31,846 nt of DNA from a virus. Under the pieces are notes generated by a model. The model searched no databases. It saw only the letters and a program-made list of their open reading frames with translations, and was not told the origin of the DNA. The DNA is taken from IMG/VR virus record IMGVR_UViG_3300037502_000200, positions 1 to 31,846 of that record. The stretch is one strand, 5' to 3'. Every line of letters starts with the position of its first letter. Position 1 is the first letter of the stretch. This document shows, in pieces, positions 7,076 through 31,782 of this stretch. A program made the translations under genes and the position numbers.

Positions 7076-7417
7076 CTAAATTAGATAGTTCGGCGGATCG
7101 GCTTTTATCTTCTCCCCTGCCTCGGTCAATGTATACCAAGTCATCTCTACTCGGTCGTAATAGGGATGATCGAAGCTATCCCATTGACCTAACTTCCAGC
7201 CCATATCCCGAGCTTCTCCGGCTACTGCCGAATCCGACTCCATCGCATAGTTTAGGTAAGCGCAGACTCTGAGGAGGTTATCGAACCGGTCTAAGAGCTT
7301 AGAGCTTCCCATTCCTCGATTCCGGCGATGGTGAGTTTGTAATCCCTCGGTAGCGCCACAATGCGGGCAATAAGGATGAGCCTCTACTGCCCGCTTTAGC
7401 GCCTGTGTTCGATTCAA
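7076..7417 (-). CDS. HNH-like protein
   Basis: A 113-residue protein. It opens with a CPHCG zinc knuckle (residues 17-21), then LQTHHRRNRGMGSSKLLDR near residues 26-44, the HH core of an HNH nuclease. A later segment DNLLRVCAYLNYAMES gives the second half. The typical final H or N is replaced, so activity is uncertain. The only start joining the upstream gene is TTG at 7417, overlapping the previous stop as TTGA. It lies between recombination and replication genes. A homing or recombination-associated nuclease is possible. Confidence 0.65.
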   Translation of the reverse strand: MNRTQALKRAVEAHPYCPHCGATEGLQTHHRRNRGMGSSKLLDRFDNLLRVCAYLNYAMESDSAVAGEARDMGWKLGQWDSFDHPYYDRVEMTWYTLTEAGEKIKADPPNYLI

Positions 7418-7737
7418 AGCCTAGATTCCTGCCCGATTAGCTTTGCTTGGGTTGCTAAGACCATCGAAGCGGTTTCAATAGCTTTTATCTTCTGCCTAAT
7501 CCTCGAGAGTTCGGCTTTCCGTAGATCTCTCTGTAGCCTAGCTTCGGCGGATTCCAGCCTTGCGATAGATTGCCTATCGGCAACAGTCCCAGCGGCCTTT
7601 AGAAAGGATTTCGACTCGATTAGGTCTAAATCGTATTCGGCTTCGGCTAAAGCCTTCTCAGCCTCGAATAAGGCCGTAGAACCCCTACTATTTTCCGCTA
7701 TTAGATCCGCTAGCTGTTCCTGGATCTCTCGAATCAT
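7414..7737 (-). CDS. hypothetical coiled-coil protein
   Basis: A 107-residue protein rich in Ala, Glu, Leu and Arg, almost entirely predicted helix, with heptad-like leucines from residue 5 to 95, so likely a coiled coil. No catalytic motif is visible. It is overlapped at its start by the 60-residue gene at 7688-7870 and at its stop by the TTG start of the HNH-like gene. It could be an accessory of the recombination genes upstream, which is a guess. Confidence 0.6.
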   Translation of the reverse strand: MIREIQEQLADLIAENSRGSTALFEAEKALAEAEYDLDLIESKSFLKAAGTVADRQSIARLESAEARLQRDLRKAELSRIRQKIKAIETASMVLATQAKLIGQESRL

Positions 7738-7870
7738 TCAGAACCCCTAGTAAAAGCTCGATTAGTTCCCGATTCCAAAATTGCGCCTCTTCCTCTCTAC
7801 CCCGATACCTCGCTATCAGGTAAGCCTCCTCCAACTCCCGAAGTTTGGCTGTCTGCGAAGCGCTTAGCAT
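7688..7870 (-). CDS. hypothetical small protein overlapping the annealing gene
   Basis: A 60-residue frame whose middle, AYLIARYRGREEEAQFWNRE, reads like a genuine amphipathic helix pair. Its first 24 codons overlap the 3' end of the annealing-protein gene in another frame, and its last 50 bases overlap the next gene. There is no strong ribosome site. Without it a 59-base gap would be left. Moderate support only. Confidence 0.45.
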   Translation of the reverse strand: MLSASQTAKLRELEEAYLIARYRGREEEAQFWNRELIELLLGVLNDSRDPGTASGSNSGK

Positions 7871-9272: not shown

Positions 9273-9524
9273 GTGGGCCATTTCGACCAAAAGCACTATA
9301 GGCTTCTCAAGGCTATTCACGCCTCCGGCGGAGTTCCCTGCGAGTCTTTTCCGGAGCTATTCTTTCCGGAGGAGATAAGGGATGAAACTCGCCGAAAACT
9401 AGCGAGCCTTATAGCTAAAAGGATGTGCTCTACCTGCCCCATAGTCGAAGAGTGCTTTAGATATGCGATCGAGTCGGGGCAGAAATATGGCATTTGGGGA
9501 GGAACATCCCCTAATGAGCGTTAG
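9273..9524 (+). CDS. whiB: WhiB-like iron-sulfur regulator, lacking basic tail
   Basis: An 83-residue WhiB-family protein, the only gene on the plus strand. The four cluster cysteines are C23, C52, C55 and C61 (MCSTCPIVEEC), and the GIWGG turn is at 73-77. Host WhiB proteins use the cluster to bind sigma factor SigA and usually carry a basic C-terminal DNA-binding tail. Here the protein ends NER, so that tail is missing. The only in-frame start is GTG at 9273, with a weak ribosome site and a -10 box just upstream. Its stop overlaps the end of the convergent holin gene by 4 bases. It probably redirects host sigma-dependent transcription; a dominant-negative action, as reported for the phage TM4 WhiB, is inference. 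Confidence 0.92.
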   Translation: MGHFDQKHYRLLKAIHASGGVPCESFPELFFPEEIRDETRRKLASLIAKRMCSTCPIVEECFRYAIESGQKYGIWGGTSPNER

Positions 9525-18641: not shown

Positions 18642-19049
18642 TTAGCTAGCTAAAACACGAACATTGAACTCGGCTGCCAGATAAGTAACATCTGAAATTA
18701 CAACCGCGCCATAATTCGTCATTTCGGTTACTATCGTGTCGAAGGCCTTGCCCGATAGCTTCCTATCAGATTCTACAGCAAGAGATATCGAGTAGTCTCC
18801 GGTGCTTGAGCAATAAGAATCTAAAGCGCGTTGTGCTGTTCTTTCATCTACCCTGCCGACAATAACTTGAACAGCGAAGTTATATTCGGTCATACCGCGT
18901 TGGAAGTCTTGGTGATAGGCAACTCGACTTAGCTGGACTACCGCAATAGGAGGACTCGGATTATCTGGAATAGTAGCTCCGACTCGAAGACCTGGGATTG
19001 TAGCTAAGTTTGCGGCAAGCCCATCTCGGAGATCCGTAATGCTAGCCAC
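18642..19049 (-). CDS. tail terminator / tail completion protein
   Basis: A 135-residue alpha-beta protein (DLRDGLAANLATIPGLRV at 6-23) between the connector and the major tail protein, where tail terminator proteins (lambda gpU-like) are found. The start is GTG, overlapping the upstream TAG. The motif pattern fits phage proteins with a short N-terminal helix and a PP-x-AVV strand. It should cap the tail tube and join it to the head. Confidence 0.68.
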   Translation of the reverse strand: MASITDLRDGLAANLATIPGLRVGATIPDNPSPPIAVVQLSRVAYHQDFQRGMTEYNFAVQVIVGRVDERTAQRALDSYCSSTGDYSISLAVESDRKLSGKAFDTIVTEMTNYGAVVISDVTYLAAEFNVRVLAS

Positions 19050-19642
19050 TAGGCCATCCTAATTTTGCGGTAAGGCTCAATTAGGTGCTGAACATCGGGA
19101 TCTAATCTAAAGCCGACTCGCATCGAGCCAAGCTCTCCGGAGATAATTCCTAGAGGAGAATCGAGTCTCTTGAAGATTCTAGATCCGAGAATAATTGTGG
19201 CTTGAGTAATAGCAATAGGAACACTAGACCACCCCCAAACTCCGGTTAGCCGAGCGGTAGCCTCACCTTCCCTAACTGGGAATAGATAGTTATCGACCGC
19301 TCTAATCTGGGTATAGGAGGTTACTAGGCCTCCGGCCAGGTTGTTTAGAGGCTCTGCTTGCCAGTCTGTAGCCGACCATTCGGTATCCCAAGACTCGCCA
19401 TCCTCGGAGGTTTCTACCTTAGAGAGACTAATAAAGTCATCGGTAGGAAGAACATAGTTATCTAGCGGGCTATAGATCCTTACCGCTGTTCCTGCATTAT
19501 AAAAAACTCTTTCGGTATAGCTGTCGATTTGCCTAGAGGCCGATTCGATAGCCATCTCCAATAGGCTATCCTCGAAGCCATCTGCGATTCCTATCGCCGC
19601 TTTTATCTGCTGTAATGTGGCATAGCCATTAGTAATCGCCAT
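19049..19642 (-). CDS. head-tail connector protein
   Basis: A 197-residue protein. The first half (YATLQQIKAAIGIADGFEDSL, read across residues 7-27, then ASRQIDSYTERVFYN) matches the gp6/gp15-like adaptor that sits below the portal. The second half is beta-rich and Trp-rich (GVWGWSSVPIAI), common in actinophage connectors. It is separated from the capsid gene by the sugar-gene cassette, which is unusual for this gene order. Confidence 0.78.
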   Translation of the reverse strand: MAITNGYATLQQIKAAIGIADGFEDSLLEMAIESASRQIDSYTERVFYNAGTAVRIYSPLDNYVLPTDDFISLSKVETSEDGESWDTEWSATDWQAEPLNNLAGGLVTSYTQIRAVDNYLFPVREGEATARLTGVWGWSSVPIAITQATIILGSRIFKRLDSPLGIISGELGSMRVGFRLDPDVQHLIEPYRKIRMA

Positions 19643-19655
19643 TATTCCTCCGGAT

Positions 19656-20456
19656 TTATTCTACCTGCATCGAACTTATTAGCTGATAAATACTAGGTGG
19701 ATACTTATAGCCGGCCTGTTGCCAGAGAAGGTCATTTACAGCGGGGTAAGTAGTAGATAACCTTCGATCTACCTTCTCGGTTATCTTCGGGATAATTGTC
19801 AGGTCATCCCTGCCTAGCCTTTCGGCTATCGCCATAATTAGCTCATACTTTGTTACCCAACCCAGGGGTATAAGGTGCTGAGTTCCCGCTATAAAGTAAT
19901 TCTGCTCTAGGAGGCCTCTAACTACTTCGGCAAAGGCATCGGTTGTAACTCCATTCCAATAGTGATTTATAAAGCCGTAAATAGTCGCGCCTCTAGGCTG
20001 ATTTTTTACCCACTCAAAGAGGCTTTTCTTTCCGGTTAGCTCCGATCCAATAATCGAGGTTCGAAGATTCATCCAATCGGTAGCCTTTACTTCTCCCTTG
20101 ATTTTAGAAACCCCATAGGAATCGGAAGCATCTTTCTTACTATGCTCCGAATACCAGCCATCTTTACCGCTATAGGCGCAGTCGGTAGCTATTTGGATTT
20201 TATAAGTTTGCGGATAGTTTTTTATAAAATGCGGAAAATCGCTATTTATCTTTTCCTGTAAATCCGGATTTGTATTCTTCTGCGGAATAATTCCGATGCA
20301 ATTTATAATTACATCCTCGGACTTTAGGCCGAATCTATCTAGAGAATCAAAGGCCTCATATTCTTCTCGAGTAGGCGCTATTAGATCAAAGTCGGAGAGC
20401 TTATCTACTAAGCGGTGGCCAAGCATCCCCGAAGCTCCGAGGATTAGGACTTTCAT
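19656..20456 (-). CDS. dTDP-sugar reductase-like (RmlD/SDR family) protein
   Basis: A 266-residue short-chain dehydrogenase-type protein. LILGASGMLGHRLV at residues 3-16 gives the GxxGxxG nucleotide-binding loop. SYGVSKIKGE near residues 108-117 carries the YxxxK catalytic pair. NCIGIIPQ and ATDCAYSG fit the RmlD (dTDP-4-dehydrorhamnose reductase) group. It is last in a three-gene sugar cassette and its ATG overlaps the upstream stop (ATGA). It probably completes a nucleotide sugar for the two transferases, but the sugar is not known. Confidence 0.8.
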   Translation of the reverse strand: MKVLILGASGMLGHRLVDKLSDFDLIAPTREEYEAFDSLDRFGLKSEDVIINCIGIIPQKNTNPDLQEKINSDFPHFIKNYPQTYKIQIATDCAYSGKDGWYSEHSKKDASDSYGVSKIKGEVKATDWMNLRTSIIGSELTGKKSLFEWVKNQPRGATIYGFINHYWNGVTTDAFAEVVRGLLEQNYFIAGTQHLIPLGWVTKYELIMAIAERLGRDDLTIIPKITEKVDRRLSTTYPAVNDLLWQQAGYKYPPSIYQLISSMQVE

Positions 20457-21163
20457 CTAAGAGCCTTCGCTAGTTGCCTAATTTGCTCAATGCCTTCTGT
20501 TCTATCCTGAGCAGAGATTGAAGCTCCGGATAGAGTTACTCGATCGTAACCGCGGTCATAGACAATTCGTATCTCAGAAGTCCTGTATGGCTTTACTAGA
20601 CCAGTTTTCCTCATAAGTAGGGCTAAACCCCAATCTGCGAATCTTATGCCTTCTGGGAAGCCACCAGAGGCCTCCCAGAGGTCTTTAGTCATTGGGTTAG
20701 CTCCTCCTAAATCAAAAGTGTGATTTAGATCGTCAGCTACCCAATTTGTATAAAGGATATGGTCACTACCCTTAGTCCTAATAGCATCACAGACTAAATT
20801 AGATCCGCGCTTTTCAGCCTCGAGAATAGAATTTATCCCTTTAGGTAAAAATTGATCATCGACATTACAGATAGCTACCCACTTAGTTGAACATAGTTTT
20901 ATAGCTAAATTCCAATACTCGGCGTAGTTTTCTAGATCTCTTTTTACGACCTTAGTTATCGACCAGTCTTGAACACTCTCAAATACCGCAGGATAGTTTT
21001 TACTATCCGTAACTATTACTATCTCATCCGGTTTAGTTTCTAGGGATAAAACCCCATCCCACCACTGCTCTAGGAACTTAGAGTATCCCTCTCCCCAAAT
21101 AGCTAAAGGTAGCCCAATGGTTACACGAGGGTTTTTAGGAAGGGAAGCCAATAGTGATTCCAT
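20453..21163 (-). CDS. GT-A family (GT2-like) glycosyltransferase
   Basis: A 236-residue transferase with a GT-A fold. RVTIGLPLAIWGE near residue 13 gives the first strand, PDEIVIVTDSKN the second, and NVDDQF near residue 95 the metal-binding DxD-like motif. Late residues GFPEGIRFADWGLAL match the donor or acceptor side of GT2-like enzymes. It starts 43 bases inside the previous gene. The likely role is adding a sugar to a phage protein or lipid; the target is not known. Confidence 0.8.
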   Translation of the reverse strand: MESLLASLPKNPRVTIGLPLAIWGEGYSKFLEQWWDGVLSLETKPDEIVIVTDSKNYPAVFESVQDWSITKVVKRDLENYAEYWNLAIKLCSTKWVAICNVDDQFLPKGINSILEAEKRGSNLVCDAIRTKGSDHILYTNWVADDLNHTFDLGGANPMTKDLWEASGGFPEGIRFADWGLALLMRKTGLVKPYRTSEIRIVYDRGYDRVTLSGASISAQDRTEGIEQIRQLAKALR

Positions 21164-22323
21164 ACTTTTACATTATCGAATTGCTGAGCGAACTTCCTCG
21201 AAGTCTCGGAGTATCTGCCTTCGGACTTCGATACCTCATAAGCGTTTTCTAGCTGAGTAATAATAGAAGCGATGTAGGGAGTTTTCCACCAAGCAATCTG
21301 CGCCTCATCCCAAGATAACTGGCCTTGAACCTTGAAGCCATCTTCGGCTACTAGATCTCTTGGCCCAGTCCAATCTGTTCCGATTACTCGAGTCCCACAG
21401 GCCTGAGCCTCAATTATTGGAATCTCAAATCCGCCTCCGAGGGATAGCTGTAAAGCTACATCGGCGGCGGAATAGAATCCCGCTAGGTCTTTAGGATCCA
21501 CTCCTAGTCGATAGTCGATTGGGTCAGGGAAGATAACTGCCGATAGGTCTAAACCGCAAGCCTCCGCAAGTCTAGGAAGATGGAAGCCTCCATAGATTCC
21601 TTTAGGTTCAGTATGGATATAGAGATAAGCATTAGGCACTTTCTTCCTAAAAGCGGCGAAAGCCATAAGAGCTTCACCAAATGCTTTGCGGTGAATCGAC
21701 TTATTAGCTTTATTAGCGGAGTTCATTACTACTAGAAAATCGTCATCCTTTAGCCCAAGAAATTCTCTAGCATCTTGCTTACCAATTTTTTCGGTCGGTT
21801 TGAAGGTGGAGATCGTATCTACTGAGTGAGGGATGTATATACCCTCGATTCCAACCTCGGTCATTTGCTCGAGACCGAAGGGAGACATCGCGATGGGAGT
21901 TACATTATCTTTCTCGAGCCATCTCTTTACCGCAGGGGGCATAGAGATATGGTCTAGTGGAACCCAACTTAGGATATTAGGAAACTCCTCGGTAGGCCAC
22001 ATCTCGGGCTTTAGAACCCAGACATCGCAAAGAGTAAGGATGTAATCTTTCCAATCTTGCTTACTCATCTGCAACTTGTGTGCAACTGCTAGGGCATCTT
22101 GAGACATCGGCTCATAACCGCGGGCATAATGAGGGATCTCTCCATAGGGAGTTTTATGTGTCGAGTTATTACCCTCGAGTCCATAATTCGAGACATGGGC
22201 TACATTTACCGAGTGCTTAGCTAAGTTATCTACTACCTGCCCTATTTGCATCCCATAGCCGGTTGGCTGATAGGGAGAATTTGAGAAGGTGGTAATAGTT
22301 AGATCTAGATTTTCTACTTTCAT
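21121..22323 (-). CDS. GT4-like (GT-B) glycosyltransferase
   Basis: A 400-residue glycosyltransferase. TGYGMQIGQVVDNL near residues 21-34 is the sugar-nucleotide loop of the first Rossmann domain. GGGFEIPIIEAQACGTRVIG near residues 294-313 is the GT4 signature with the E-x7-E pair. PHSVDT and FYSAADVALQLS in between are also typical. It is first in the cassette after the capsid terminator, so it may need read-through or a separate promoter. Candidate target: capsid or tail. Confidence 0.85.
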   Translation of the reverse strand: MKVENLDLTITTFSNSPYQPTGYGMQIGQVVDNLAKHSVNVAHVSNYGLEGNNSTHKTPYGEIPHYARGYEPMSQDALAVAHKLQMSKQDWKDYILTLCDVWVLKPEMWPTEEFPNILSWVPLDHISMPPAVKRWLEKDNVTPIAMSPFGLEQMTEVGIEGIYIPHSVDTISTFKPTEKIGKQDAREFLGLKDDDFLVVMNSANKANKSIHRKAFGEALMAFAAFRKKVPNAYLYIHTEPKGIYGGFHLPRLAEACGLDLSAVIFPDPIDYRLGVDPKDLAGFYSAADVALQLSLGGGFEIPIIEAQACGTRVIGTDWTGPRDLVAEDGFKVQGQLSWDEAQIAWWKTPYIASIITQLENAYEVSKSEGRYSETSRKFAQQFDNVKVWNHYWLPFLKTLV

Positions 22324-22351
22324 ATTTTCCTTTCTACCTAGAGAATAGCAA

Positions 22352-22378
22352 AAACCCTCGGATTTTGTCCGAGGGTTT
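22352..22378 (-). terminator. Rho-independent terminator after the capsid gene
   Basis: Arms AAACCCTCGGA and its exact complement TCCGAGGGTTT (11 base pairs) enclose a 5-base loop. On the minus strand a T-rich tract (extending the arm to TTTTT) follows. It lies between the capsid stop and the GT4 start. Confidence 0.88.
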
Positions 22379-22395: not shown

Positions 22396-23568
22396 CTAGG
22401 CTGCGCTACCCTTGAAAATCTTGAAGTGCTCCTGGTGGCTAAGGTCACCATCCACGCGAATCATGAACCTGAATACGCTGAGATCATTGGCGAATTTGTA
22501 ATCATCGCTTCTGTCTACTCTCAGGCCTCCGGCAAGGCGAACCTTGTATGAAGGCAGGTATCCAAAGCCCACGCTTGCGGCAGCTGAACCAACAGCGGCC
22601 ACCGCTGGATTCTCAAATACTGGGAATCCAAGTAGCGTGTCTGGGGTTGCGGCTGTTAGAGCTGGCTGGAACAGATACTGTCCATCGTTGTCCTTGAGCT
22701 TGCGTGCGTTGCGGATAGCAGATGGAGACATCATGAATCCAGTTCCCTGCAATCTGCGAACAGCGCCATCAACGGAATATACGAGGTCAATGAGCTGGTC
22801 TGCCGTAAATAGTCCGCCTGCGATCGTGCCGGATACACCAGTTCCAGCGGCAGTAAATAGACCATTTGGCTTTGCGTTTCCGTCACCAGTGGTAAGTGCA
22901 GCATTTACTGCATAACCAATTGCGTTACCGGCCTGGCGTGCGAGAACTTCTGCAATATCCACTCCCGCATCATCGATAAGCTCACGAGCCACCGGCACCA
23001 AGAAAGCGTATTTGTATGCCTGCAAGGTAATGGATGAGAAAGTAGGTTCGCTCTCGTCAATCTCCGCACCTGCGGCCTCAAGTCCAGCAGTGCTGTAAGC
23101 AGTGAGCACAGGAATCTTGAGATCTTCGCCAGACTGCGTGTCGAAGCGGTCGGATACATCGAGCATCGGTCCAACTTCACGAGCCAGATCATATACACGA
23201 GCCACAAAGCTCTGTGGAACTAGACCGGAAGATCCCGATGGGGTTAGGGTTCCACGAGTCTCAAAAGCGTGAGAGCGAATCTCACCCTTTGCGAGTGCGC
23301 GGACATAGTCATAATCTGACTTGGTAACTTCTGCTACCTCGAATCCGCTAGTAGCTGCGGCGGCCTTTGCCTCGCGCTCTTCTGCCTTGCGGATTGTCTC
23401 GATAGCGGCTGCTCGCTCGTCAAGATCCTTATTGATGCGGTCGAACTTGTCCTGCTCTTCTGCAGTTAGGTCGCGCTTCTCGGATGCGGCTGTGTCAAGA
23501 AGTGCCTTCGCTTCTTCCCACGCCTTTGATCGAGCCTCAGCCTGTGCCTTGATAAAGGACTGTGACAT
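22396..23568 (-). CDS. HK97-type major capsid protein
   Basis: A 390-residue capsid protein. Residues 1 to about 75 are a charged coiled coil (AEARSKAWEEAKALL and on), the delta-type scaffold segment removed by the prohead protease. The rest is the HK97 fold: TPSGSSGLVPQSFVARVY near residues 107-124, LTAYSTAGLEAAGAE, and a C-terminal FRFMIRVDGDLSHQEHFK. AGGAGAA precedes the ATG. Codon use is distinct (few CTA leucines, few CTAG), fitting high expression. Terminators lie on both sides, so it forms its own transcription unit. Confidence 0.95.
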   Translation of the reverse strand: MSQSFIKAQAEARSKAWEEAKALLDTAASEKRDLTAEEQDKFDRINKDLDERAAAIETIRKAEEREAKAAAATSGFEVAEVTKSDYDYVRALAKGEIRSHAFETRGTLTPSGSSGLVPQSFVARVYDLAREVGPMLDVSDRFDTQSGEDLKIPVLTAYSTAGLEAAGAEIDESEPTFSSITLQAYKYAFLVPVARELIDDAGVDIAEVLARQAGNAIGYAVNAALTTGDGNAKPNGLFTAAGTGVSGTIAGGLFTADQLIDLVYSVDGAVRRLQGTGFMMSPSAIRNARKLKDNDGQYLFQPALTAATPDTLLGFPVFENPAVAAVGSAAASVGFGYLPSYKVRLAGGLRVDRSDDYKFANDLSVFRFMIRVDGDLSHQEHFKIFKGSAA

Positions 23569-23962: not shown

Positions 23963-25452
23963 TAGTTCCTCTTTAGTAGTAGGTCAAGTTGCTTACGCTT
24001 TAGGTCTAGTAGAGAAGGCTCTTCTACCTTTTCCTCTTCTACCTGCGGAGTAGGGGAAAGGGTATCTACAACTTTCTTGATAATCTCGGATTCTTCCTCG
24101 GTAAGGTTAGCGCCTTCCTCGAGCTTTAGAACTACATCGGCAAGAGTATCGGCATCTACTCCGGTGCGGATAGCGAGTTTATCTAGCGCTCTTACACTTG
24201 CTTCGGTTTCCTGATATGCGGGGAAGCTCACGATTGAGACCTCAAATAGTCTTACAGACTTTAGGGTTCGCTGAGTCATCTCAGTATTCCAAGCATCGCG
24301 CTTTACTGAAAATCCAAAGCTCATTTTAGATAAGTCACCGCGGCGGAGCAGTTCTGCCATATCGCGGCCATCGGTCGTATTAGGGAGATCGGCCTCGACT
24401 CTTAGGCCTTTCTCATCTTCCATTAGTCGGAGAGTTTTAGCTCGAGATGAAGCTAGAACCCTTCCGGTATCGTGATTTACTAATAGCTTTACATCATTCC
24501 GGCTCTTTAGCGAACTTCTAAAAGCTCCTGGCTCGATAGTCTCGACAAATCCGCCTAGATCTTCGGAAGGCGAATTGAACCTTGCGGCATAGCCAACAAA
24601 GGTCATTCCTTCACCTTGTTGCCGAATCTCAAAATCGGCGTCAAAGTTTCTCTGCTCTTGTTTCATTAGCGCTCTTTCCTGCTCTGCTTCTAGTCTAGTA
24701 ACAACACCTTCGGCATATGCTTGCGCACGCCGAGCAGATCTTTTAGAAATACCTCCACCCCATAGAGCCATAGCTACAACTCCTGGCGATGGGAAGTTAT
24801 CGGAGTTAGGGTTAGCATCGGGAGAATCTAGATCTACTATGTGCCTAGCAATCCAAGCGGCTATTCTCTTCCACTTATCGGCGGATACTGTTCCTTCCGC
24901 CATTAGTCGAGCTTCTCTAATAGTTCGATCTACTAGACCATCTCCGCCTAATCCTTCGGAATACCACTCGAGGCCTCTTCTCGCGCTAGCGCGCATATAG
25001 CTAGGGGCTTCTAGATTTACTTGTCTATTTTCCCTGTCCTCTAGAGAATCTATTTTTGTAAGAGTAGAAAATTTATGTCCTACTAAAGTATCCGTTTCTT
25101 CCCATCCCTCTGAGCCTTCTCGCCAAATTCTAATAAGAGCTGCTGGATCGTCGGGAGTTCCAGTAATAACTACGGATGAGTTAGGAACATCTATCTCTCC
25201 ATCTCTAACTATGCGCTCGATTTGTCCCCTAGCCCTGCCGCCCGAGGAGTTCCAAGATACAAAATCGCCAAGTTCAAGACTATCCGGAGTAGCTCTTTCT
25301 CCGCCTGGCTCCATACCTTCGGAGATAGAAACAGCAACCATTTGATCGATAGCAGATTGCTTAGTGTTATGGCAACCGATAACTTCTCCATCGGCCTTCT
25401 CGACAGCCCAACCATCGCAATCGGGATTGGTATCAGAAATAAAATATGGCAC
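23962..25452 (-). CDS. multidomain prohead protease
   Basis: A 496-residue protein, far longer than a typical prohead protease. Domain 1 (residues about 1-48) has MPYFISDTNPDCDGWAV and KQSAIDQMVAVS. Domain 2 (about 55-137) is Tudor-like (LGDFVSWNSSGGRARG). Domain 3 (about 150-255) starts YMRASARRGLEW and includes MALWGGG. Domain 4 (about 268-420) is the HK97-type serine protease, with H327 (VNHDTG), S378 (KMSFGF) and E404. A Glu/Lys-rich tail follows. It matures the capsid by removing the delta segment. The first three domains also occur with phage head proteases, from memory; their role is unknown. Confidence 0.88.
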   Translation of the reverse strand: MPYFISDTNPDCDGWAVEKADGEVIGCHNTKQSAIDQMVAVSISEGMEPGGERATPDSLELGDFVSWNSSGGRARGQIERIVRDGEIDVPNSSVVITGTPDDPAALIRIWREGSEGWEETDTLVGHKFSTLTKIDSLEDRENRQVNLEAPSYMRASARRGLEWYSEGLGGDGLVDRTIREARLMAEGTVSADKWKRIAAWIARHIVDLDSPDANPNSDNFPSPGVVAMALWGGGISKRSARRAQAYAEGVVTRLEAEQERALMKQEQRNFDADFEIRQQGEGMTFVGYAARFNSPSEDLGGFVETIEPGAFRSSLKSRNDVKLLVNHDTGRVLASSRAKTLRLMEDEKGLRVEADLPNTTDGRDMAELLRRGDLSKMSFGFSVKRDAWNTEMTQRTLKSVRLFEVSIVSFPAYQETEASVRALDKLAIRTGVDADTLADVVLKLEEGANLTEEESEIIKKVVDTLSPTPQVEEEKVEEPSLLDLKRKQLDLLLKRN

Positions 25453-26855
25453 TAGCCAAGCCTCGCTTCCACAATTATTGTTCCACCTAAAGCAACTGCC
25501 GAGCCATTTATAGTTATGCCTCCGGCATTTAGATCTAGAGAAATACTTTGGGTTTCCGCTGTATAAATAAGCGGAGAGCTAGCGGTAATAACTCCCGATG
25601 GGCCTTGCGGGCCAGTAGCTCCGGTAGCACCTTGCGGCCCAGTCGCGCCTTGTATACCTTGCGGGCCTTGAGGACCAGTTGCGCCAGTAGCGCCGGTTGC
25701 CCCAGTCGGGCCAGTATCGCCGGTATCTCCCTTATCGCCTTTATCTCCCTTATCGCCCTGTATGCCCTGTATTCCTTGCGCTCCCTGTGCGCCTTGTGGG
25801 CCTGTTGCTCCGGTTGGCCCAGTATCCCCTGTATCACCTTTCGGGCCTTGGATACCCTGCGGGCCTGTTGCACCAGTTGCTCCAGTTGCTCCGGTGTCTC
25901 CCTTATCTCCCTTTACGCCTTGCGCGCCTTGAGGCCCAGTCGCTCCGGTTGCACCCGTCGCTCCGGTATCGCCTTTATCGCCTTTAGGTAAGACAAAGTT
26001 TAGAGTTTGACTAGGCGCTGTTCCAGAAACTGTTACCGCGGCAACTGTTCCACTAGTAACTGTTCCGACAGATAAGACTGTGGGTTGCCCTAAGACTGTT
26101 TCATTTACCCAAAGATTAGTTGCCGTGTCATAAACAAGCGATTGCCCATTAGTCGGACTTGTGATTTTTACATTATGTAATTCTTCTAGTTCATAGCCAT
26201 TCTGAATATTTACATAAATTACGCCGTTATTTTGATTAGATCTTACGCAATAGCCGATAAAAACAGCGTTGTCGGGTGCGGTTGGCTTTGTCGAAGTTAG
26301 GCCACCTGGGACTGTAGGAGAAAGCCATACCGCTGCGCCTTCGGTTAGGGCCAGCGTGTTTATGTTGCGAACAAGTCCAAAGGTTGCAGCAAAGCCTTTG
26401 TTTCCACCGCTGATTGTCTCTGCCATAACTGCGATAGTTTTAGAGCTTGCGGCTTCTGTGTTTCCCTGTGCGTATGCAACAAGTTTGTTGTTCCCGTCTG
26501 ATCCTGTAACATAAACAGCCTTACCCTTAGTGCGCTCGCTACCATCCGAAGACTTTGCCAAGATGAAAAGCTCTTGCCCGACATTCTGATTTACAGTCGG
26601 GGTCATGCCTAGCTCTAGGGTTTTATCGGCATCATTCCAGCCAATGCGACCTACTTGGATCGAGGGAACAGAATTTACATTGAATTGGATATAGGCAGGT
26701 TCGGCGATTGCGGTAGCGCCAATGATGTTATCTATTAGCGTTGCTTGATTTTGATTTACAGTCGCGCTAAAAGTTCCACTAGTCGTAATAGTTGCGGTGT
26801 TTGGCGCCGTAACTTCGACAATGCTAGTACCGCTAGTAACTCTTATTACACTCAC
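25452..26855 (-). CDS. collagen-like head fibre or decoration protein
   Basis: A 467-residue protein in three parts. Residues 1 to about 290 form a beta-rich N-terminal domain; about 291-421 is a collagen-like Gly-x-y repeat ([13 protein letters not shown] and similar); about 422-467 is a short beta-rich end ([19 protein letters not shown]) that may trimerise. Collagen-like stalks form trimers outside the virion. It lies between the portal and protease genes, so a head fibre or decoration is likelier than a tail fibre, although that is inference. Translation couples to the 115-residue gene upstream (ATGA). Confidence 0.8.
25593..25985 (-). repeat. collagen-like Gly-x-y coding repeat
   Basis: About 131 codons of glycine triplets with frequent GATGPQG, GPQGIQG and GDKGDTG blocks. 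The repeats are similar at DNA level, so they could expand or shrink by recombination. Many Asp-Lys pairs should stabilise a triple helix without hydroxyproline. Confidence 0.9.
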
Positions 26856-30197: not shown

Positions 30198-30639
30198 GCT
30201 TTGCCTTTCTTGCTTGCAACTCTTCTAATTTACTCATAGCTTTTACTTCGGCTACTCCTAGCTTGCTTCGATCCGCAGGAGTAAAGCCTAAAAGACTTAG
30301 ATTAGAGATTATTAGTCGATCTAGTTCCCTAAGCCCGCGGCGTAGTCTTGCGTCATCGGTGCTCATAACCTTTACTCTGAGATTCCAACGCTCATCGACT
30401 AACTCGCAGGTCATAAGTAGGAGTTCATAGTCGGTATTAGCTGAGATCCAACTAAGGCCGTAAGCCCAGACTCGATCCCATAGCTCTTGTCCATACTTTA
30501 GAAGCGGTCTAGTTGGCTCTGGTATTTCATTTGATTTTGGCAGAACCTGAATCGCATCGGCTTTTGGAAGCGCCCGCTTGCCAGGGTTTCCTAATAAGCG
30601 CTTTTGCTCTATCGGTTTAGATGGCCTTCCCGCTGGCAT
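30151..30639 (-). CDS. terminase small subunit (P27-like)
   Basis: A 162-residue protein that recognises the packaging site. It opens with MPAGRPSKPIEQKRLLGNPGKR, the basic, Gly/Pro-rich start of P27-type small terminases (residues 1-22 with the GNPGKR mark). A middle helix region (LSWISANTDYELLLMTCELVDE) and SLLGFTPADRSKLG follow. ATG overlaps the Mom gene stop (TAATG). Confidence 0.88.
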   Translation of the reverse strand: MPAGRPSKPIEQKRLLGNPGKRALPKADAIQVLPKSNEIPEPTRPLLKYGQELWDRVWAYGLSWISANTDYELLLMTCELVDERWNLRVKVMSTDDARLRRGLRELDRLIISNLSLLGFTPADRSKLGVAEVKAMSKLEELQARKAKRVASTMANPSSAESN

Positions 30640-31292
30640 TATTTCTCACTTAGAGCGGTTGGCTGGAATTGCACCGGCACTTCGGTAAGGGAATTACCGC
30701 GGCTTACTTCTAAGCCCTCAACCGCATTTGGATAAGGCAGGGCTAGCTTAGCTAATCTTCTGCGGAATTGCTTATCTAGTGGGTAGATATATCTAAATTT
30801 TCCTGGGGATACCCGCGTAGGCGCTATCGAGCGCTCTTTATGGTGATAAGCGCCTCGAGTATGAACCCATCTTCCGCCAATAAAATACTCGGTTACTGGA
30901 TTAGAGCTACCTGTAAAGATCCAGTTTCCGGCCTGATAGATTCCTCCCTTATGGCCTTCCTTCGGATCTGCAAAAGAGATAACACATCGCAGACCAGGAT
31001 TTGTCTCTTTTAGTATTTTGAAAGATTCGGCTAATAGCTGGCTTACTGGGGTTTTGTGCTTATCTAAGGCAACTCTAGTTAGTTCGCATAATTCGGTTTG
31101 GTCTAGCTGTAGTGCTGTTCCGAGATGCGGAGAAGCTCCTCGACTAAAGATAATAACTCCGATAAATTTGCTCTCCTCGAATACGCCGATCTTGACTAAC
31201 TTTCCAGTCGGCAGGATTCTCGAGTAATGCCAATTCTTTACCGCAAATTCCGCAGCTTGAGCATTTACTAGCTTTAGCTCAAACAATCTCAA
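30639..31292 (-). CDS. mom: Mom-like DNA-modification protein
   Basis: A 217-residue protein resembling the phage Mu Mom family, GNAT-fold enzymes that convert adenine in DNA to N6-methylcarbamoyl-adenine (momA) and so block many restriction enzymes. Visible marks: NWHYSR at residues 20-25, GVIIFSRG at 45-52, ELCELTR at 67-73, SFADP at 106-110 and HKGGIYQAGNW at 114-124. A His-rich AYHHKER follows. It overlaps the ParB-like gene by 14 bases and stops on the small terminase start. Expression with terminase suggests late modification just before packaging, as in Mu. The assignment is good; the exact modification is inferred. Confidence 0.82.
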   Translation of the reverse strand: MRLFELKLVNAQAAEFAVKNWHYSRILPTGKLVKIGVFEESKFIGVIIFSRGASPHLGTALQLDQTELCELTRVALDKHKTPVSQLLAESFKILKETNPGLRCVISFADPKEGHKGGIYQAGNWIFTGSSNPVTEYFIGGRWVHTRGAYHHKERSIAPTRVSPGKFRYIYPLDKQFRRRLAKLALPYPNAVEGLEVSRGNSLTEVPVQFQPTALSEK

Positions 31293-31782
31293 AACCCTTA
31301 GCAGTCTGCCTAAACTCGCATCCGCATTGTGGGCAACTTATGCTATTCCGCTGATCGAGTCTCGGAGCATCGGCTTCTGTAAATAGGTCATCCGGCATCT
31401 CTAGATTCTTTATCTCAAATCCCAATTCGGCTAGTGGGATAGAAGTTAGCTTTAGCTCCTGTAGCTGAGCATTTAGAACCTCGGTCTCCCAAGAGGCTAA
31501 TTCTGCGGTGCGGTTATCTGCTAGGGCATAAGCCTTTATGCGGTCGCTATCCCAATCCTCGGGAACTCGAACAATATCTATCTCTTTCCATCCGAGGCGC
31601 TTAGCCGCTTCGATCGTGCCGTTACCGGCAACTACTACGCCATCGGCGGTTACTACTATCGGCTTTCTTTGCCCGAACTCTCTTAGGCTAGCCTCGATAG
31701 CTCTTAGATTCTTTTCATCGTGGGATCTAGCATTAGCCGGATCTGGGGTTAGATTCCCTATAGCGATGCGCTCGATTTTCAT
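31279..31782 (-). CDS. ParB-like nuclease-domain protein with zinc-knuckle tail
   Basis: A 167-residue protein. PDPANARSHDEKNL near residues 13-26 and VVAGNGTIEAAKRLG at 50-64 are the two main boxes of the ParB/sulfiredoxin-type domain. The C-terminus carries CPQCGCEF at 150-157, one zinc knuckle. Short ParB-domain proteins in phages commonly accompany DNA-modification genes. The gene is first in the leftward late operon, with AAAGG before the ATG, and it overlaps the Mom-like gene. A DNA-sequence-guiding or regulatory partner for Mom is likely but inferred. Confidence 0.8.
   Translation of the reverse strand: MKIERIAIGNLTPDPANARSHDEKNLRAIEASLREFGQRKPIVVTADGVVVAGNGTIEAAKRLGWKEIDIVRVPEDWDSDRIKAYALADNRTAELASWETEVLNAQLQELKLTSIPLAELGFEIKNLEMPDDLFTEADAPRLDQRNSISCPQCGCEFRQTAKGFEIV

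Follow-up and report, generated by a model that had tools for sequence, protein, structure and literature searches.

The DNA analysed here (hereafter the window) is a viral IMG/VR record of 31,846 bases. A WhiB-like regulator encoded on its plus strand (9273-9524) points to an actinobacterial host. The structural genes are located on the minus strand, in the order terminases, portal, protease, capsid, cassette, connector, and tail genes. The cassette, which comprises a GT4-type glycosyltransferase, a GT2-type glycosyltransferase, and an RmlD-like reductase, lies on the same strand between the capsid gene and the head-tail connector (Table 1). These three open reading frames and their families are as the initial annotation described them: the coordinates match, and the Pfam scores all exceed their cut-offs. 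That annotation also had the three genes overlapping one another. The 4-nt overlap between the RmlD-like and GT2 genes (ATGA) was confirmed; the 43-nt overlap between GT2 and GT4 is uncertain, because an identical ATG inside the 3' end of GT4 also precedes unrelated downstream genes and because residues 1-9 of the GT2 model are of low confidence. Elsewhere in the window, genes for a Mom-like DNA modification protein (PF25680, 4e-46) and a ParB-like protein (30639-31292 and 31279-31782) were located ahead of the terminase genes, and a 467-aa protein whose sequence includes a long collagen-like GXX repeat is encoded between the portal region and the protease (25452-26855).

Table 1. Features of the capsid-to-connector region of the window, with the evidence for each.
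Feature	Position	Strand	Evidence
Major capsid protein, HK97 fold, proposed sugar acceptor	22396..23568	-	Phage_capsid PF05065 1.3e-56, phrog_10
Capsid Thr243 codon, candidate O-glycosylation site	22840..22842	-	computed from ORF start
Capsid Ser328 codon, weaker second candidate	22585..22587	-	Ser/Thr covariation
Hairpin with T-run 3' of capsid gene, intrinsic-terminator-like	22350..22378 (about)	-	fold
GT4-type glycosyltransferase, conserved core gene	21121..22323	-	Pfam GT1/GT4, phrog_2170 9e-35
GT2-type glycosyltransferase, first gene of exchangeable module	20453..21163	-	PF00535 5.7e-9
RmlD-like SDR reductase, second gene of exchangeable module	19656..20456	-	PF04321 2e-12
gp6-like head-tail connector, far border of exchangeable slot	19049..19642	-	PF05135 8.4e-7, phrog_442

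The terminator that had been noted after the capsid gene is borne out by folding, as a strong hairpin behind the stop codon (-22.5 kcal/mol). In relatives, 112 of 112 capsid-GT4 spacers contained a hairpin that reached at least -9 kcal/mol. A simple terminator scan of the window missed it, probably because the T-run pairs into the stem. Relatives with an empty site retain a GC-rich hairpin-like stretch between capsid and connector, as read from their sequence, and the hairpin thus probably belongs to the capsid gene and not to the cassette. The same empty sites, with the hairpin kept, bear out the earlier description of the cassette as inserted between the two genes.

The GT4 product scored above the cut-offs of PF13692 (39.5 bits, cut-off 27) and PF00534 (31.6 bits, cut-off 26.4), with a profile E-value of 8.6e-10. 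Its AlphaFold model (pLDDT 93.8) has a GT-B fold and matched GT4-type enzymes over the full length (Z 27-33), including sucrose-phosphate synthase (Z 33.2), 3oy2 (31.6), BshA (31.6), and MshA (31.2). Chloroviruses glycosylate their own capsid, and 3oy2, among the best of these matches, is a glycosyltransferase of chlorovirus NY-2A (rmsd 3.0, 356 residues); at 15% identity and tied with the bacterial enzymes, it shares only the fold. The EX7E motif of the window's GT4 reads GGGFEIPIIE, with Gly in place of the first Glu; the second Glu (E304) is invariant. The window's clade and its sister branches have lost the first Glu and gained a Glu three residues on, whereas other GT4 branches have the canonical GEGFGxPxxE. 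For this reason the protein is named GT4-type here and not a canonical GT4, and without the first Glu the activity of the window-clade enzyme is not assured.

The GT2 product (PF00535, 36.6 bits, cut-off 23.3) retains as invariant residues an Asp pair of the DxD type (D101/D102) and D176/W177. Its AlphaFold model (pLDDT 89) has a GT-A fold, with matches to the fucosyltransferase WrtF, SpsA, RmlT, TarS, and TarP. As modelled, the folds of the two transferases do not tell the acceptor and are also common to cell-wall enzymes. The third protein belongs to the superfamily PF04321 but reached 45 bits against the equivalog TIGR01214, for which 224 are required. A true RmlD (dTDP-4-dehydrorhamnose reductase) was ruled out by this score, and RmlD-like reductase is the right name; its relatives keep the GxxGxxG and YxxxK motifs. 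No RmlA, RmlB, or RmlC was recognised beside this single reductase, and the host must therefore contribute to the donor pathway. Membrane segments were not seen in any of the three proteins. Among 408 slot genes, one exceeded the hydrophobicity threshold, at the core strand of a GT2; the slot products thus look soluble, and no flippase or membrane protein was found in any slot. The features of a Gtr-type cassette (a GtrA flippase, a polyprenyl-linked GtrB with membrane segments, and a temperate phage) were likewise not found.

We collected relatives from IMG/VR by querying with GT4, the capsid, the connector, and the epimerase. The counts given here are of distinct sequences, not of separate lineages, and are influenced by the choice of seeds. 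The 211 capsid-to-connector intervals comprised 179 with GT4, 26 that were empty (84-144 bp), and 6 with GT2 only. A first survey seeded in GT4-rich branches had found 2 of 128 sites empty, as compared to 26 of 211 after reseeding from an empty-site phage; survey fractions are therefore not population frequencies. Behind GT4, the slot held GT2a with the RmlD-like gene (the window's type) in 22 intervals, GT2b with an epimerase in 26, and GT2c with a cytidylyltransferase in 38. Other contents included a methyltransferase or GT2 alone, and GT4 was the only recognised gene in 22 intervals. The cassette sought in related phages was thus present, with GT4 behind the capsid gene in those 179 intervals (the isolate phiPsal1 included), but not as the single three-gene unit originally described: it consists of a fixed GT4 and an exchangeable slot. 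The description of a cassette with its own nucleotide-sugar enzyme survives only as far as one RmlD-like reductase. Because its gene is part of an exchangeable module and most relatives lack it, GT4, and not this gene, must be regarded as the core of the system.

A recent and exact exchange of the slot is seen in two phages, L052 and L173. Their sequences share 95.9% identity as far as five bases beyond the GT4 match, and identity resumes, at 95.0%, 22 bases before the connector. Within these flanks, one carries GT2b and the epimerase, the other GT2c and the cytidylyltransferase. Module type changed 15-17 times on the capsid, GT4, and connector trees (74-92 labelled rows), as compared to a shuffled mean of 36-45, which indicates that modules are inherited for a while and often replaced. 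GT4 itself was retained, with 40-100% identity, in most of the intervals sampled, and three comparisons gave dN of 0.07-0.10 against saturated dS; because dS was saturated in most comparisons, no exact dN/dS is given. On ten contigs (7-30 kb) without GT4 at the site, GT4 was not found elsewhere; a separate single-protein search recovered it in 13 of 13 carriers. A nucleotide search of the region among annotated phages returned no match, and a pattern search of bacterial genomes found no relative of the RmlD-like protein. The sole close match to GT4 in bacterial genomes (43%) was located on a contig of a Microbacteriaceae bin, on which the genes follow the same order as in these phages (capsid, GT4, GT2, connector). 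L308, a phage-like contig from a bin assigned to Microbacteriaceae, has an MptE-like gene (weak, below cut-off) between GT4 and GT2 (7175-7834).

Were a virion protein the target of GT4, its acceptor residues would be expected to persist in phages with GT4 and to be free to change in phages without it. The question was posed for Ser/Thr before column 243 of the capsid was known and with one empty lineage in hand, and that single lineage was the reason for an extra search for GT4-free phages. In empty-site phages, 28% of cells in conserved Ser/Thr columns of the capsid had lost the residue, as compared to 3.5% in phages with GT4; for other residue classes, the loss in empty-site phages was 3-7%. 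Most of the Ser/Thr loss is carried by the column of residue 243, which is Ser or Thr in 94% of 145 capsids from phages with GT4 and in 0 of 29 from phages without it, where Ala, Glu, or Leu is found instead. Eight capsids accompanied by GT4 have no Ser/Thr at 243, so either the site is dispensable to some extent or these phages use another acceptor. The GT4-free capsids form four groups, separate on the tree, and the three with more than one row are fully supported branches. The nearest GT4-carrying relative of each group has Ser at 243, and the independent contrasts show the residue in agreement with GT4 in four of four cases when the IQ-TREE tree is used; the scan on the FastTree tree gave a mean of 3.7 of 4.

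We ranked 3,474 capsid column-properties by their difference and tested the top 90 on pairs. Ser/Thr at residue 243 was the best of them all, followed by Ser/Thr at 328 (2.4 of 4 contrasts; 95% of capsids with GT4 and 24% of those without). The best columns of the tail terminator (2.0 of 5), tail tube (2.5 of 4), and connector (1.7 of 3) were not comparable. When a simple two-state model, the one model used, was fitted and simulated on the tree, 0 of 20,000 runs gave a difference as large as that seen at 243. The contrasts number four (sign test p = 0.125), and many columns were searched. Capsid columns 219, 17, and 263 likewise differ strongly by lineage. Within the window's clade, in a gappy alignment, the capsid covaried with module type (A, B, or C) no more than other proteins did. 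Among the intervals with GT2 but no GT4 (L350, L353, L438, L437, L444, and L447), the four that were scored have Glu at capsid residue 243.

The nearest known function is virion glycosylation in mycobacteriophages, whose capsid and tail proteins are glycosylated by phage enzymes; Che8, Corndog, and Myrna are named in the account of Freeman et al. (2023) given in PMC12363180. Shared with these are phage-encoded glycosyltransferases in actinobacterial tailed phages and a capsid target (here only proposed, from sequence) and, with Che8, two or more transferases side by side. The enzymes here are unrelated to those of Che8, where a GT2-methyltransferase fusion, a GT2, and a GT25-like protein (gp108-110) are encoded at the extreme right of the genome and not behind the capsid gene, in a cluster with no nucleotide-sugar gene. 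For the pairs compared by hhalign (GT4 with gp108, GT2 with gp109 and gp110), the probability was under 1%, i.e. no relation. The nearest isolate, Pontimonas phage phiPsal1 (MG835450), has a genome of similar size (31 kb) with capsid, GT4 (45%), GT2, and neck protein ordered and positioned as in the window. It differs in that a methyltransferase gene on the opposite strand replaces the RmlD-like gene and in that its GT2 is of another type; the phage was judged lytic, and its genes are not discussed in its paper. Microcystis phage Mae-JY09 (PP395641) has a GT4 relative (33%) behind its capsid genes; next come an unassigned gene, an epimerase, and the connector region. There an epimerase stands in place of the RmlD-like reductase, the recorded host is a cyanobacterium, and our capsid query missed the capsid. 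The freshwater Planktophila phages E7 and F5 and the G2/G3 actinophages resemble the window's phage by gene types, with WhiB and glycosyltransferases, and the role proposed for the latter is DNA protection or a superinfection block (PMC10202952).

The fixed GT4, together with the repeated loss of Ser/Thr in GT4-free phages, suggests a virus whose own shell is given a coat of changeable sugar. We consider it probable that this is a virion-glycosylation locus, in which GT4 would O-glycosylate the capsid protein (residue 243 being the probable site) and the slot would set the rest of the glycan. The sequence of events we infer is as follows: GT4 would be made together with the late structural genes and would transfer a sugar to the major capsid protein in the cytoplasm, with a linkage most likely O-linked at Ser/Thr243, in the loop ahead of the TADNLIDL helix. 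In the window's phage, GT2 would then add a second sugar, and the RmlD-like reductase may carry out the last step in making a nucleotide-sugar donor from host precursors. Since GT2 and the RmlD-like gene are one of several interchangeable modules, relatives would be expected to show different glycans on one capsid, in the manner of serotypes. With about even confidence, we propose a capsid 'serotype' system in these terms: GT4 would prime one Ser/Thr, and a recombination slot would swap sugar modules while the shell protein stays unchanged. The benefit may lie in evading some agent by which the shell is recognised or bound.

The initial annotation had likewise favoured a virion coat sugar, with a change of the host surface as its alternative. 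The first idea is supported in part, by the conserved place behind the capsid gene and the covariation of GT4 with Ser/Thr243 in four contrasts. The second emerged as the weaker, and we regard it as unlikely: the enzymes would glycosylate a host wall polymer late in infection and so block superinfection or keep progeny from sticking to debris, as was proposed for the glycosyltransferases of the Planktophila phages (PMC10202952). Consistent with such a role are the resemblance of the GT2 model to RmlT, TarS, and TarP, among others; the glycerol-3-phosphate cytidylyltransferase-like gene in some modules, an enzyme of teichoic-acid type; the polyrhamnose wall sugars reported for Pontimonas, host of the nearest isolate (PMC6106888); and the modification of wall teichoic acid by prophage-encoded TarP (PMC9650247). 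A wall target does not, however, predict a tie of GT4 to one capsid Ser/Thr, and the lack of a flippase or membrane protein in every slot also speaks against it. Lasting conversion of a lysogen is unlikely, because no integrase-sized unassigned ORF was seen in the window and phiPsal1 was judged lytic.

Glycosylation of another structural protein, such as the tail tube or a fibre, is quite unlikely. The slot adjoins connector and tail genes, and mycobacteriophage enzymes are described in PMC12363180 as acting on tail tube proteins as well, but among the three proteins compared (tail terminator, tail tube, and connector) no column compares with capsid 243. It is highly improbable that the enzymes glycosylate DNA and so shield the phage genome from nucleases, as proposed in PMC10202952: the phage does encode the Mom-like protein, but the cassette lies among capsid genes far from it, the ORFs searched in the window yielded no recognisable gene of the hydroxymethylase or thymidylate-synthase-like kind to supply an acceptor base, and a tie to capsid residues would not be expected. 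Neutral passenger genes at a tolerant intergenic site, to which the empty sites and freely exchanged modules might point, are equally improbable given the retention and low dN of GT4.

Glycosylated phage shells are documented in a few mycobacteriophages, and the explanation offered is antibody escape. The phages described here were recovered from aquatic metagenomes, a setting in which selection by antibodies is not obvious, yet their sugar modules are exchanged as though diversity were being selected for. If capsid glycosylation is the correct reading, something else in the water (host surface, competing particles, or grazers) would select for shell sugars, and aquatic actinophages would alter the shell glycan while holding the shell protein constant. 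Residue 243 would then be an acceptor site predicted purely from phages with and without the cassette, offering a testable site, one residue on one protein, in place of the guesses of DNA protection or superinfection block made for freshwater actinophages.

Two departures from the usual arrangement were observed among the relatives. In L125-L129 and L133, the epimerase of the GT2b module was located just ahead of the large terminase gene and not behind the capsid gene. In one contig (L031/L079), the capsid gene and cassette occur in an unusual order and in opposite orientation, the product of either an assembly artefact or a rearrangement.
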